59,606 nucleotides of DNA, from NCBI GenBank assembly GCA_030693515.1, contig JAUYAK010000106.1, positions 1-59,606 of the forward strand. Direction: 5' to 3'. Shown piece by piece: positions 24,908-48,361 of this stretch (the first letter of the stretch is position 1; the number at the start of each line of letters is the position of its first letter). This DNA is from Opitutaceae bacterium (GTDB taxonomy: Bacteria; Verrucomicrobiota; Verrucomicrobiia; Opitutales; Opitutaceae). Made by a program: the position numbers and the translations under genes. The notes beneath the pieces are model-generated. The model had not been told where the DNA came from. It did not search any database and saw only the letters and a program-made list of their open reading frames with translations.

Positions 24908-26685
24908 GCCCCGCCGCTCCCTTCATTCCCGACGCCGCGCCGTTCAGCGCCGAGCAGCGCGCCTGGCTCAACGGCTTCTTCGCCGGCATGTTCTCGCGCG
25001 CTCCGGTCGCAGGCGGGTTGCCCTCGCCACGCGAGACACCGGCCCCGCTCACGCCTCTCACGATCCTGTTTGGGTCCCAGACCGGCACCGCCGAAGGTCT
25101 GGCCAAACGCGTCGCCAAGGAAGCCGGCAAACGCAATTTCGCACCCACCGTGCTCGACATGGCGCAATGCGATGTCGCTAGGCTTGCAGGCGAAAAGAAT
25201 CTCCTCGTGCTCACCAGCACCTATGGCGACGGCGAACCGCCCGACAACGCCAAGGCCCTGCACACCGCGCTCCAAGCAGCGGCGAGCGCCAGCGAGCCGA
25301 CCCGCTCACTCACTGCGCTCCGTTTCTCCATCCTCGCCCTCGGCGACACCAACTACACCCAGTTCTGCAAAGCCGGCGCCGACTTCGATCTCTACCTGGA
25401 AAAACTCGGCGCCACGCGCGTCACCCCCCGCGTCGACTGCGATCTCGATTACGAGGGTAAGTTCAGCGCGTGGCTCAATTCCGCCCTCACCGCCCTCGGC
25501 TCGTCCGCTCCGCTCCCGTCAACGGAGACGACCGCCACCATCGAAAATCATAAACCTGAAATCGTAAATGAGAGCGGTTACAACCGCTCCCGTCCCTTCC
25601 CCGCCCTCCTGCTCGCCTCGCGCAACCTCAATGCCCCCGGTTCCGCCAAACAGGTCCACCACGTCGAGTTTGATCTCGCCGGCTCCGGACTCGCCTACGA
25701 AGCCGGCGACGCCTTGGGCGTTTACGCCCACAATTGTCCCGCTCTCGTCGCCGACGTGCTGGCCGCCCTCGCCTGCGACGGCGAGGAGGCCGTGCCCGCA
25801 CCCGATGGTAGTTCCGTTCCGCTGCGCCGCGCGCTCACCGAGTTCTACGATCTCGGCAAGCCCTCGCCCGATCTGCTGAATCTTGTGGGAGCGACCTCGG
25901 TCGCGACTGGGCCCGCCGGAGTCGCGAGCCAGCTCTTTCCCGCCACTCCGCATCACGTGATCGATGCAATTCTGACCCGCGCCGATGCGAAGCTCGCCCC
26001 GGCCGACTTCGTCCGCACTCTGAAGAAACTTCAACCGCGCCTCTATTCGATCTCCTCCTCGCCACGCGCGCACGCGGGTCAGGTCCACCTCACCGTCGGC
26101 GCCGTGCGCTACGAACTCTCCGGCCGAGCGCGCAAGGGCGTCTGTTCAACATTTCTGGCCGAACGCGCGGCGCCTGGCGAAGTGCGCATTGGAATCTTCG
26201 TCCACTCGAACAAGGCTTTCCGTCCGCCCGCCTCCGGCGACACCCCGGTGATCATGGTCGGACCCGGCACGGGCATCGCGCCTTTCCGGGCCTTTCTCCA
26301 CGAGCGCAAGGCCGCCGGCGCGAAGGGCAAAAACTGGCTGCTCTACGGCGATCAGCGCGCGGCGACCGATTTTCTCTACCGCGAGGAACTCGCCGCCCTC
26401 CAGCACGAGGGCGTGCTCACGCGCCTCGACACCGCCTTCTCCCGCGATCAGGCGGAGAAACTCTACGTGCAGCAACGCATGACGGAAAACGCCGTCGAAC
26501 TCTACGCGTGGCTCGAGGCCGGCGCGCATTTCTACGTCTGCGGCGACGCCTCGCGCATGGCCAAGGATGTCGATGCCGCGCTCCACGCCGTAATCGAGCG
26601 CGCCGGCGGCAAGACCGCCGATCAAGCCGCCGCCTACGTGCAGGCCCTCCAAGCTGCGAAACGCTACGCGCGCGACGTTTACTGA
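24904..26685 (+). CDS. CysJ-like diflavin reductase (electron donor for nitrite/nitrate reduction)
   Basis: A 593-residue flavoprotein: N-terminal FSAEQRAWLNGFFAGM (14-29); flavodoxin domain with FGSQTGTAEGLA, STYGDGEPPDN and LGDTNYTQFC; FAD domain with RLYSISSSP and GVCSTFLAE; and NADPH domain with GPGTGIAPFRAF and WLLYGDQR. It resembles the alpha subunit of NADPH-sulfite reductase, but its place after nirA points to nitrite or nitrate reduction; it may also serve CysI, since no other CysJ is in the window. Two low-complexity, palindrome-bearing segments sit in frame, one in the linker near residue 214 and one in the connecting domain near residue 328. Confidence 0.88.
   Translation: MSPAAPFIPDAAPFSAEQRAWLNGFFAGMFSRAPVAGGLPSPRETPAPLTPLTILFGSQTGTAEGLAKRVAKEAGKRNFAPTVLDMAQCDVARLAGEKNLLVLTSTYGDGEPPDNAKALHTALQAAASASEPTRSLTALRFSILALGDTNYTQFCKAGADFDLYLEKLGATRVTPRVDCDLDYEGKFSAWLNSALTALGSSAPLPSTETTATIENHKPEIVNESGYNRSRPFPALLLASRNLNAPGSAKQVHHVEFDLAGSGLAYEAGDALGVYAHNCPALVADVLAALACDGEEAVPAPDGSSVPLRRALTEFYDLGKPSPDLLNLVGATSVATGPAGVASQLFPATPHHVIDAILTRADAKLAPADFVRTLKKLQPRLYSISSSPRAHAGQVHLTVGAVRYELSGRARKGVCSTFLAERAAPGEVRIGIFVHSNKAFRPPASGDTPVIMVGPGTGIAPFRAFLHERKAAGAKGKNWLLYGDQRAATDFLYREELAALQHEGVLTRLDTAFSRDQAEKLYVQQRMTENAVELYAWLEAGAHFYVCGDASRMAKDVDAALHAVIERAGGKTADQAAAYVQALQAAKRYARDVY
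25543..25589. repeat. AT-rich segment plus 8-bp palindrome in frame within the flavoprotein gene
   Basis: An AT-rich stretch (25543-25570), out of character with the surrounding GC-rich code, is followed by GAGCGGTTACAACCGCTC, a perfect 8-bp inverted repeat with a 2-base loop. It encodes ENHKPEIVNESGYNRSRP in the linker between the flavodoxin and FAD domains. The opposite strand reads YDFRFMIFD, which I recall as a recurring repeat translation. Confidence 0.55.
25884..25927. repeat. REP-like element in frame within the flavoprotein gene
   Basis: The segment opens TGTGGGAGCGACCTCGG and contains TCGCGACT and AGTCGCGA as perfect inverted 8-mers (25901-25908 and 25920-25927). The first ten bases, TGTGGGAGCG, also open the intergenic element at 56503. 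It encodes VGATSVATGPAGVAS in the connecting domain. Confidence 0.6.
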
Positions 26686-26686
26686 C

Positions 26687-28183
26687 GTGGTCGCGTCGCC
26701 AAAGAATTTCCCGCTGATCGCCGAGCTCCTCGCCGAGCAGCAGCGGTTGCAAACGCCCGTGGCGCAGTTCGCCACCGCCCACGATGCCGGCGTTTCCTTC
26801 GTCCCCCAGCTCATCCCGCTCAGCCTGCCGGGCCCCGGCGAGCAATACGCCTTCGAGGTCGACCTCGATTCCTGCACGGGCTGCAAGGCCTGCGTTTCCG
26901 CCTGCCACTCGCTCAATGGCCTCGACGACGAGGAGACGTGGCGCGACGTCGGCCTCGTCGTGAGCCCGAGCCGCGCGCATCCGTTCACGCAGACCGTCAC
27001 GACCGCGTGCCACCATTGCGCCGACCCTGCGTGTCTCAACGGCTGCCCCGTCCTCGCCTACGAAAAGGATCCGATTACGGGCGTCGTCGTTCATCTCGAC
27101 GACCAGTGCATCGGCTGCAGCTACTGCGTGCTGAAGTGTCCCTACGACGTGCCGAAATTTTCGGAACGCCTCGGCATCGTGCGCAAGTGCGACATGTGCC
27201 ACAGCCGGCTCGCCGCCGGCGAAGCCCCCGCCTGCGCCCAGGCCTGCCCCACGCACGCGATCAAGATTGTCACGGTGCAATCGAATGTAGGCAGATCGGC
27301 CACATCCGGCGTCGACACCTCCTCATTCCTCCACGCCGCGCCCGACCCGTCCTACACGCAGCCCACGACGCGCTACATTTCGAGCCGCCCGCTGCCGGAG
27401 AATCTGGTCGCCGCCGACGCCACCACCCTCCGCGTTCAGCCCGCCCACTGGCCGCTCGTGATCATGCTCACGCTGCTGCCGGCCGCGGTCGGACTGCAAA
27501 TCGCCTCGTTGGGTTCTGCCTCTAAACTTTCGACGCTCAACGCTCAACTGCTGCCCCTTGCCGCAGCCGCAGCCGGCGGCCTCGGCCTCCTCGCCAGCGT
27601 CTTCCACCTCGGCCGACCGCTGCGCGCGTGGCGCATCTTCCTCGGCTGGCGCAAAAGCTGGCTCTCGCGTGAAGCGATGGTCTTCGGCGCGTGGTTCCCG
27701 CTCACGGTCCTCGCTGCAGTCGCTCCGCATTTCTCTCAACTTTCACGCTTTAACTTTCAATCGCTGCCGATGGTGACGGCCACCATCGGCACCCTCGGAC
27801 TCGTCTGCTCCGCGATGATCTACGTCGATACGCGGCGGCACTTCTGGCGCGCGGCCCAGACCTTCCCGCGTTTCTTCGGCACCGCCCTCGTGGTCGCGGC
27901 CGCCTGCCTCGCTCCCCTCGCCGCCATCCCGCTGCTCGCGTTCAAGCTGGCGCTTGAGTCGCGCACCTTTTTCTTCGGCGAAGTCTCGGCCCGCCTCCAG
28001 CGCGGACCGCTCGCCCGCGCCGCCGTCGCCCGCGATCTCTGCGGCCTCACCGCGCTCGTGCTCCTCACGGCCGCCCCTGTTTGGCTTGCGCTCGCGCCGC
28101 TGCTTGCGGGCGAACTCGCCGAGCGTTACCTGTTTTTCCGCGCCGTCGACGCGCCCAAGATGCCCGGCGTCCCCTCCGCATGA
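26687..28183 (+). CDS. Nitrate reductase electron-transfer subunit, DmsB-DmsC fusion
   Basis: A 498-residue fusion. The first 210 residues are a four-cluster ferredoxin of the DmsB/NarH kind, with [35 protein letters not shown] and CDMCHSRL...CAQACP. The remainder is a DmsC-like membrane anchor with seven or eight helices ([42 protein letters not shown] and others). It should pass electrons from the quinol pool, or from the flavoprotein, to the molybdenum subunit encoded next. The start is GTG at 26687, 1 bp after the previous stop. Two copies of an AACTTTC repeat lie in frame in the membrane half. Confidence 0.88.
27524..27549. repeat. AACTTTC repeat, copy 1, in frame within the DmsB-DmsC gene
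   Basis: The segment contains AACTTTCGACGCTCAACGCT and encodes KLSTLNAQL, replacing the expected hydrophobic wording between two membrane helices. It matches copy 2 at 27738 over AACTTTC, ACGCT and AAC. Composition is less GC-rich than the surroundings. Confidence 0.55.
27733..27762. repeat. AACTTTC repeat, copy 2, in frame within the DmsB-DmsC gene
   Basis: The segment contains AACTTTCACGCTTTAACTTT and encodes [10 protein letters not shown] in a loop between membrane helices. AACTTTC occurs twice within it. I recall LSTFNFQLST-like peptides as common spurious translations of a dispersed repeat; this is recollection. Confidence 0.55.
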
Positions 28184-30438
28184 TTCCCCCGCTCGACGAA
28201 CTGCTGCACGCCCGCACCGGCCCGATGACGGCCGACATGGTGCTGCACCCCGCCGACTTCGGCCTCGGCCGCATGCCCGCCCGTCTTCAACCCGCCGCCA
28301 CCACGACCTCCGTCTGCGGCTTTTGCAGCACCGGCTGCTCGCTCAGGATCCACCTCAACGCCGCCGGCGAAGCCATCAACCTCAGCCCGGACCGCGATCA
28401 CCCCGTCAACCTCGGCATGGCCTGCCCCAAAGGCTGGGAGGCGCTCACGCCCCTCGCCGCACCCGATCGCGCCACGACGCCACTGCTGCGCGAAAGCAAA
28501 TCCGGCGCACTCGCACCCGTCTCGTGGGAACGCGCGCTCGCGGCGTTCACCGAAACTTTTAAGGGCATCCAGCAAAAGCACGGTCCTCACTCGATCGCGT
28601 TTCTCAGCACCGGCCAGATCGTGATGGAGGAGATGGCCCTGCTCGGCGCGCTCTTCAAATTCGGCATGGGCGGGCTGCACTGCGACAGCAACACGCGCCA
28701 GTGCATGGCCACCTCGCACGTCGCCTACAAACAGTCGTTCGGCTTCGACGCGCCGCCGTTCACCTACGCGGACTTCGAGGAGAGCGACGCCCTCATCTTC
28801 ATCGGCGCCAATCCCTGCATCGCCCATCCGATCATGTGGCAGCGCGTGATGATGAACCAACGATCGCCCGAGATCGTCGTCATCGATCCCCGCGCCACCG
28901 AGACCGCGCAGGCCGCCACGCTCCACGTCCCACTCCGCCCGAAGAGCGATCTCACGCTGCTCTACGGCCTCGCTCACCTGCTCGTCGCGCGCGGCGCAGT
29001 AAAAATGGATTTCGTGAAAAAACACACGAACGGCTTCGAAGCTTTCGTCACCTTCCTCGCGGATTTCACCCTTGATCGCGTCGCCGCCGAAACCGGTCTC
29101 CCCGCCGCCACGCTGCACCGTCTCGTCGAAATCATCACCACCCGCGAACGCGTTTCCTTCTGGTGGACGATGGGCGTCAACCAGAGCCACGAGGCCACGC
29201 GCACGGCGCAGGCGATCATCAATCTCGCGCTGATGACGGGCAACATCGGCCGCCCCGGCACCGGGGCCAACTCGATCACCGGCCAGTGCAATGCGATGGG
29301 TTCGCGCCTCTTTGGCAACGCCACCTCGCTCCTCGGTGGCCATGACTTCGGCAACCCCGCGCACCGCGATAAAATCGCGGATGCCCTCGGACTCGACCCC
29401 GCGCGCATCCCGGAAAAAACCGGCTACGCCTACGATCAGATCCTCGACGCCATCGACCGCGGCGAGATCCGCGCCCTCTGGGTGATCGCGACCAACACCG
29501 CGCACTCATGGATCAACCAACGCCACGCGCAGGAGATCCTCGGCAAGCTCGATTTCCTCGTCGTGCAGGACATGTATGCGACCACCGAGACCGCCCGTAT
29601 GGCCGACCTCGTGCTCCCCGCCGCCGGCTGGGGCGAGAAGGAAGGCGTGCTGATCAACAGCGAGCGCCGCCTCGGCGTCGTGCGCAAGGTCGCCCGCGCG
29701 CCCGGCCAGGCGCTGAGCGACTTCGCGATCTTCCAGCTCGTCGCCGAGGCGTGGGGCTGCGGAGGGATGTTCCGCGCGTGGCGCACACCCGAAGCGGCGT
29801 TTCAGCTCCTGAAAAACATCTCCGCCGGCCAGCCCTGCGATTTCTCCGGCATCCGCGACTACGAACACATTGCGGCGAGCGGCGGCATCCAGTGGCCGTT
29901 TCCGAATTCCGTAGGGGCGCAGTCTTGCTGCGCCCTTTCCGAATACGAACCGGGGCCGCAGCAAGACTGCGCCCCTACGCTCATCCGCCAACGCCGCCTT
30001 TTCACCGACGGCCGCTTCTTCCACGCCGACGGCCGCGCCAAATTCCTCTTCGACCCGCCGCGCCCGATGCCTGAGCTGCCCGACGCGGCCTACCCTTTCA
30101 TTTTACTCACCGGCCGCGGCTCCTCCGCGCAATGGCACACCGGCTCACGCACCGACAAAAGCGCCGTGCTCCGCAAACTCGCGCCCACCATCCTCACGAT
30201 GGAAATCCACCCCGACGACGCCGAGCGCCTCGGCCTCGCCGCCGGCGATCAGGCCGAAATCCGCTCCCGCCGCGGCACCGCCACCGCAACGACGATCGTC
30301 ACCGCCACCGTGCAACGCGGCCAGATTTTCCTGCCGATGCACTTCGACGCCGTGAACCGCCTCACCTTCCCCGCCTTCGACCCCCACTCGCGCCAGCCGA
30401 GCTACAAGGCCTGCGCGGTGGCGGTGACCAAGGGGTAA
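28180..30438 (+). CDS. nasA: Assimilatory nitrate reductase, molybdopterin subunit
   Basis: A 752-residue DMSO-reductase-family enzyme that reduces nitrate to nitrite with Mo-bis-MGD. The N-terminal [4Fe-4S] ligands are C46, C49, C53 (CGFCSTGC) and C82 (MACPKGW). [10 protein letters not shown] supplies the usual Mo-ligand cysteine, and the C-terminal domain has [12 protein letters not shown] and the closing [18 protein letters not shown]. There is no Tat signal, so it is cytoplasmic. It overlaps the DmsB-DmsC gene by ATGA and is the last gene of the operon. A perfect 22-bp palindrome (29911-29978) lies in frame just before [14 protein letters not shown], adding about 25 residues not expected in the family. 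Confidence 0.93.
29911..29978. repeat. Perfect 22-bp inverted repeat inside nasA
   Basis: The left arm at 29911-29932 opens GTAGGGGCGCAGTCTTGCTG, and the right arm at 29957-29978 is its exact reverse complement, with a 24-base loop. It reads through in frame as [20 protein letters not shown] plus APT. Composition and lack of family counterpart mark it as an inserted REP-like element. Confidence 0.85.
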
Positions 30439-41413: not shown

Positions 41414-41445
41414 GCCACGCGAGCCCCGGCTCGCGTGGCTTTTTT
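41414..41445 (+). terminator. Rho-independent terminator between convergent genes
   Basis: A perfect 12-bp stem (GCCACGCGAGCC and GGCTCGCGTGGC) with a 2-base loop ends in six T residues at 41440-41445. It lies between the coiled-coil gene and the convergent acid phosphatase gene and is the clearest intrinsic terminator in the window. Confidence 0.92.
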
Positions 41446-48182: not shown

Positions 48183-48297
48183 ATTCCCGGGGAGCGCACG
48201 CGGCTCGCGTGCTGGTGCCGGCGTCCCGCCGGGACCTCTGAACATCCTCGGCGAGACGCCAAGGACTGCCTGCGGGACGCAGGCGCTCCCCGGGAAT
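48183..48297. repeat. 115-bp element with 15-bp terminal inverted repeats and four internal hairpins
   Basis: ATTCCCGGGGAGCGC (48183-48197) is exactly inverted at 48283-48297. Inside are four perfect hairpins: GCACGCG/CGCGTGC (48196-48212), GTCCC/GGGAC (48223-48235), GGCG/CGCC (48250-48260) and GCCTGCG/CGCAGGC (48268-48284). It lies between convergent genes. It could fold as a cloverleaf-like multi-branch structure in DNA or RNA. Confidence 0.85.
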
Positions 48298-48361
48298 GCA
48301 CGGGCGTCAGTCTGTGGGGCGAGCCTTAATAAGACAGCTTCGGGCATCCCACCGACGAGGC

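Follow-up and report, generated by a model that had tools for sequence, protein, structure and literature searches.

The element at 29910-29979 of the window (the whole stretch of 59,606 nucleotides that was analysed, contig JAUYAK010000106.1 of an Opitutaceae bacterium) is very probably a mobile REPIN that was copied into nasA, in the part encoding a predicted disordered link before the C-terminal domain, and kept as a tolerated in-frame insert. The insertion was no one-off accident, for the NasA linker has served as a landing place repeatedly: among homologues, unrelated foldback DNA and DNA with a 7-nt period occupy the same spot.

Structure of the element and of the gene that carries it

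Two perfect inverted arms of 23 bp (29910-29932 and 29957-29979) are separated by 24 nt; under looser pairing they reach 26 nt at 96% identity (29910-29935 and 29954-29979). An earlier note on this sequence had described a 22-bp palindrome starting at 29911, which is correct but one base short on each side. About 1e-6 perfect inverted repeats of at least 23 bp, with a spacer of at most 100 nt, are expected in the window, whose G+C content is 66.8%, and a chance palindrome was rejected on this ground. The tags are those of a GTAG REP doublet, with GTAG at 29911 and CTAC ending at 29978. Every REP in the doublet, read directly, folds as its own short hairpin, a form of the left REP that was also found by a REP scan in locus L186. 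The pair is inverted, with the GTAG ends outward, and together makes one larger hairpin. Since both arms form GTAG hairpins of their own, the unit has to be classed as a REPIN, a head-to-head REP doublet; the earlier label 'REP-like' thus named the right kind of repeat but not the unit. The RNA of the element strand has a folding energy of -58 kcal/mol (z = -10.3 versus 200 shuffles). A terminator was ruled out, as the stem is internal to nasA and no T run follows it. The coordinates of the features are collected in Table 1.

Table 1. Features of the nasA region and of the inserted element (window coordinates)
Feature	Coordinates	Strand	Remark
FeS/DmsC-like fusion gene upstream of nasA	26687..28183	+	relatives' linkers there also carry palindromes
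nasA-like molybdopterin oxidoreductase, 737 aa from inferred ATG	28225..30438	+	best NCBIfam model NasA
NasA inter-domain linker, 31 codons, GGIQWP to RRLF	29899..29991	+	hypervariable among homologues
REPIN, two inverted GTAG REPs and spacer, 70 bp	29910..29979	.	within coding frame
Left REP, GTAG tag and hairpin GGGCGCAG-tcttg-CTGCGCCC	29911..29935	+	read directly
Spacer, 18 nt	29936..29953	+	5/18 positions unlike sister species
Right REP, inverted copy of left REP	29954..29978	-	one mismatch over 25 nt

The open reading frame around the element has 785 codons (28081-30438), with a likely start at 28225. The best NCBIfam model is the assimilatory nitrate reductase NasA (463.9 bits, below the cut-off of 1000) and the runner-up is formate dehydrogenase alpha (457.2 bits, cut-off 666); among solved structures, periplasmic nitrate reductases come closest. 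The name NasA was therefore given from the best score and from the neighbours, a CysJ-like flavoprotein and the FeS/DmsC-like gene, and not from a curated cut-off. As the earlier note had observed, the nasA frame crosses both arms and the sequence between them without a stop. The element encodes 23 residues, three of them cysteines; they are residues 563-585 counted from the ATG at 28225, so that the insertion in NasA stands while its proposed position, residues 577-600, does not. Overall, the element can be read without a stop in four of its six frames, and in two of the three on the plus strand.

The AlphaFold model of NasA has a mean pLDDT of 83.5 and a pTM of 0.84 (window and 39 of 80 named loci). 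The pLDDT falls below 50 only at residues 1-9 and 568-587, the latter being the sole internal segment of this kind. The linker before the C-terminal domain is thus predicted to be disordered, and the insertion site, which the earlier note had placed between GGIQWPFP and the C-terminal beta-barrel domain, is a disordered stretch in the model. The copy in the window lies inside nasA, unlike the typical extragenic REPIN; we did not treat extragenic location as defining, since intragenic cases are published in passages of PMC3733652.

Copies of the element and candidate transposases

A search of the host genome with the element returned 29 matches, which we grouped into 16 places including nasA, with 8 doublets. 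A pattern search allowing at most 2 mismatches gave 30 matches in the same genome, against 4 for the reversed control. The REPIN family is present in 8 of the 27 genomes of the genus, and genome G002 has 72 matches to the window element. The view that a REP-like element was inserted in frame is supported: the sequence is present at 15 further places of the host genome, and among 87 linkers compared the peptide is found only in the window and in the sister species (L047). None of these linkers combines the same peptide with a diverged palindrome, so neither of the two outcomes that the earlier note had named as contradicting its reading was observed.

In the sister species G018 (L047/L076), whose NasA is 92% identical, the same element occupies the same nasA site. 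An assembly artefact is disfavoured, since a second genome has the element in place, and the insertion is older than the split from the sister species. Neither an empty site in a close strain nor a target duplication was seen. Between the window and G018, the arms differ at 0/50 positions, the spacer at 5/18, and nasA outside the linker at 235/2160 nt. The lack of changes in the arms is striking, yet 68 of 1719 control windows of the same nasA pair are just as conserved, and the comparison thus argues but weakly for selection on the arms.

Of the further host places, 14 were examined, and Pfam on 20 ORFs put two of the copies clearly in frame within host genes: a sugar-type ABC ATPase and a DUF3516 helicase. 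Three in-frame copies in the host, nasA included, are therefore a minimum. One of the 14 places (L168) had no motif match; at L160, a copy that may or may not be in frame lies at the end of a TIM-barrel ORF.

Among 21 Y1 transposase loci examined in four genomes, one was flanked by REPs of the window's family. This gene of G018 (L186:1392-2012), whose frame is broken, lies between two inverted REPs and matches the REP_Tyr_transpos model of NCBIfam (NF047646) with 47.4 bits (E = 1.8e-12), short of the model cut-off of 80. Such flanks were seen at 0/7 Y1 loci in the host genome and 0/5 in G002. Given the seven unflanked host loci, and since the closest host-genome relatives of the G018 transposase are 39-40% identical to it, we consider that the element's own transposase was not found in the host. 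Two host Y1-transposase loci (L044 and L045) are near other GTAG REP families, with three copies of GTAGCGGCGGGCG... and two of GTAGGGCCTGAG....

Occupancy of linkers in NasA and in other proteins

We assembled 95 NasA loci, 15 from a search of 57 genomes (the window's own included) and the best 80 of 499. After L134 was dropped (its open frame ended early) and 7 identical linkers were merged, 87 linkers of 11 to 51 codons were kept. In 18 of these 87, an inverted repeat beat every sampled same-length window elsewhere in its own gene. The proportion of such strong repeats was 0/16 for linkers of less than 15 codons, 1/17 for 15-19 codons, 2/17 for 20-29 codons and 15/37 for at least 30 codons. 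Inverted repeats scoring at least 18 were found 13 times in the linkers (6,744 nt); the remainder of nasA had 2 and the flanks had 49, over a joint 633,146 nt. On the protein, 15 of 17 NasA inverted-repeat matches mapped to residues 550-579. The linker of L078 contains a different GTAG REPIN, with 68 matches in its host genome, and that of L113 contains a third.

Many other NasA linkers turned out to be arrays of 7-nt units, often foldbacks. Leaving aside the 33 of 87 linkers shorter than 20 codons, self-similarity at lag 7 (p <= 0.01) was found in 29 of 54 linkers and at lag 14 in 28, with 0 to 6 significant linkers for each of the other lags from 2 to 15. Of the strong lag-7 stretches, 7 were located in linkers and 9 in the flanks (445,673 nt), while nasA outside the linker (187,473 nt) had none; there were no such stretches at lags 5, 10, 11 and 13, and one, in a flank, at lag 8. 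When codons were shuffled within the linker, 32 of the 54 still stood out for lag 7 or for an inverted repeat, and 22 for neither. Seven not being a multiple of three, this period is not expected from selection for a repeated peptide. Out of phase with the codons, it marks an origin at the DNA level even where the foldback has decayed; 17 of the 30 lag-7 linkers listed have an inverted-repeat p above 0.05. Two of the 7-nt foldbacks were searched in their host genomes, where that of L138 had 19 matches and that of L126 had 11, mostly weaker.

A quick NasA tree was built without the linker columns. On this tree, six linker states require at least 35 changes, repeat versus no repeat 20, and REPIN 3. 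The shuffled mean for the six states was 42.6, and none of 200 shuffles gave a value as low as 35, so that linker states follow descent in part. Linkers are alike (0.77-0.90) in the five pairs that are closest outside the linker (93-96% identity). In the next two pairs (approximately 92% identical), L122/L106 and L133/L138, linkers are unlike (0.56 and 0.61), at the level of unrelated linkers; a CGGAA core is common to L133 and L138, whose linkers may, on their sequence, be relatives. Since the repeats at this one position differ among related bacteria, the linker gives the impression of having been rebuilt again and again from mobile DNA.

Foldback DNA was also encountered in the linkers of other genes. 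In the sugar-type ABC ATPase of the host, the REPIN lies in frame between the two ABC domains, and 2 of 19 linkers of this gene score at least 18, both with the window's REPIN. The DUF3516 helicase was surveyed across the genus at 30 loci, 26 of which cover the linker on both sides. The window's REPIN occupies this linker in G000; G016 has a second family there, and G017 has a third. In G018 (L202), the second REP family adjoins a 20-nt remnant of the right arm of the window's REPIN, which reads as a picture of turnover, one element apparently invading another. These four are the helicase linkers that score at least 18 (4/26); 10 of the 26 are merely 15-21 nt long, and every one of the 26 lengths is divisible by three, as is necessary for the frame to be maintained.

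Across 77 loci, the FeS gene that precedes nasA has two clusters of other palindromes, each in 5 loci, one at residues 200-219 and one at residues 270-289; 7 further matches are scattered outside both clusters. At residues 270-289 of L050, L051, L053, L078 and L083, palindromes such as TGTCACGTATTACGTGACA, present twice in L051, are read in a loop; they belong to a class of small palindromes distinct from REPINs. The CysJ-like gene (25 loci) gave 3 palindrome matches. In the window's copy of this gene, an in-frame GTGGGAGCGACCTCGGTCGCGAC (25885-25907) resembles half of another, decayed REP, and a different REPIN is present at about the same protein position in L090; the 7-nt repeats near 25531 are below threshold and count as a hint only. 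A codon-likelihood frame test on 51 non-linker palindromes called 15 in frame, 30 not in frame, 4 in the same frame with a stop and 2 at an edge. These counts were set aside, because the REPINs of L050 and L078 were called 'not', yet protein mapping puts both inside the FeS gene.

Between two ORFs of the window, the intergenic positions 48183-48298 have long inverted ends and further inner repeats, and are perhaps a composite of repeat elements. At 41414-41445, a G+C-rich hairpin followed by a T run is an ordinary terminator-like site.

Possible origins, precedents and meaning

The history that we favour is as follows. A RAYT (REP-associated tyrosine transposase) would have moved the REPIN as single-stranded hairpin DNA, and a copy would have entered the segment of nasA encoding the disordered link. 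Its retention by the cells would be owed to the fact that two of three frames on the plus strand are open, to the intact reading frame of nasA, and to a presumed tolerance of the protein for extra residues there. The insert would then be expressed, neutral, and compatible with normal enzyme activity. Several results count against this history: a single Y1 locus of 21 is flanked by the REP family, and its gene is frame-broken; neither an empty site nor a target duplication was seen; and 33 of the 87 linkers are short, while 22 of the 54 longer ones show neither signal after codon shuffling.

The hairpin could instead have been kept for a job, as an mRNA stem before the last domain that slows ribosomes during co-translational folding, or that protects or pauses the transcript, with lineages repeatedly recruiting foldbacks. 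Slowing of ribosomes or stalling of the polymerase is possible, judging from the folding energy of this very stable stem, and both the recurrence of unrelated foldbacks at one site and the identity of the arms in the sister species, next to a changed spacer, speak for such a job. However, 68 of the 1719 control windows of the same gene pair are equally conserved, 69 of the 87 linkers have no inverted repeat beating their own gene, and many 7-nt arrays do not pair any more; we consider this explanation unlikely. We hold it very improbable that transposition played no part and that slippage or template switching generated the repeats locally, within a tolerant linker. Tandem 7-nt arrays are a typical slippage product, and the L126 repeat has few and weak host copies, but the window element and the repeats of L078 and L138 have copies dispersed in their genomes, and simple slippage does not make paired inverted arms; for the window element, slippage is already disfavoured. 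A function of the added peptide, whose three cysteines might bind metal or form a disulfide, seems more improbable still: the cysteines are retained in the sister species, but the peptide is limited to two of the 87 linkers and its segment is predicted to be disordered.

Invasion of coding sequence by a REPIN has precedents. In-frame GTAG REP dimers are already published: passages of PMC3733652 (2013) describe intragenic, head-to-head dimers encoding 20-30 residues, most of them in the verrucomicrobium Opitutus terrae, as well as two Xanthomonas in which unlike REPs lie at nearly the same position of recB, and its authors propose flexible linkers or loops as neutral, tolerant sites. The window element is like these dimers in being GTAG-tagged, hairpin-forming, head-to-head and in frame, with 23 residues; the main text of that paper, however, does not contain the word nitrate, and its passages do not describe recurrent replacement of content in one linker over many lineages, or the 7-nt foldbacks therein. 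REPINs were defined, in the passages of PMC3116915, as dispersed, RAYT-linked inverted REP doublets of approximately 70 bp in Pseudomonas fluorescens; the window element shares their size, inverted arrangement and dispersal, but they were analysed in extragenic space whereas the window copy is coding. Rickettsia palindromic elements, according to passages of PMC10969869 and PMC3733652, also lie in frame in protein-coding genes. They are a functional parallel to the window's palindromic repeat, set apart by description: they are longer (approximately 150 bp in a review passage), of other families, and found in obligate intracellular hosts. The facing heptamer arrays of Xanthomonas described in PMC4692102 (passages), dispersed in 70 and 75 cases in two genomes, resemble the 7-nt foldbacks of the relatives' linkers and not the window element; there, one heptamer type is 89-93% intergenic, whereas NasA has many heptamers in one coding linker. 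A closer precedent for the NasA case, or for recurrent colonisation of one linker, was not found in the open-access literature. Recurrent, interchangeable occupation of the same linkers may thus be the new part.

In our reading, small foldback DNA finds a safe harbour in such linkers. A broader proposal, to which we give about even credence, is that in Verrucomicrobiota and their relatives disordered inter-domain linkers are a standing niche where unrelated REPINs and 7-nt foldbacks enter, decay and replace one another, so that the linkers would owe their sequence to the assembly of mobile DNA more than to point change. The examples are NasA, its FeS partner and the DUF3516 helicase; the CysJ-like flavoprotein and the sugar-type ABC ATPase provide a hint. 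The 7-nt period provides a simple means of searching for further linkers that consist of mobile DNA. The nasA insert is a clear case of mobile DNA becoming, presumably through expression, protein in an enzyme of nitrogen assimilation, and the recurrence of repeats at one linker opens an old question to testing, namely whether translated palindromes are no more than tolerated or have a part in setting the length of linkers and in translation.
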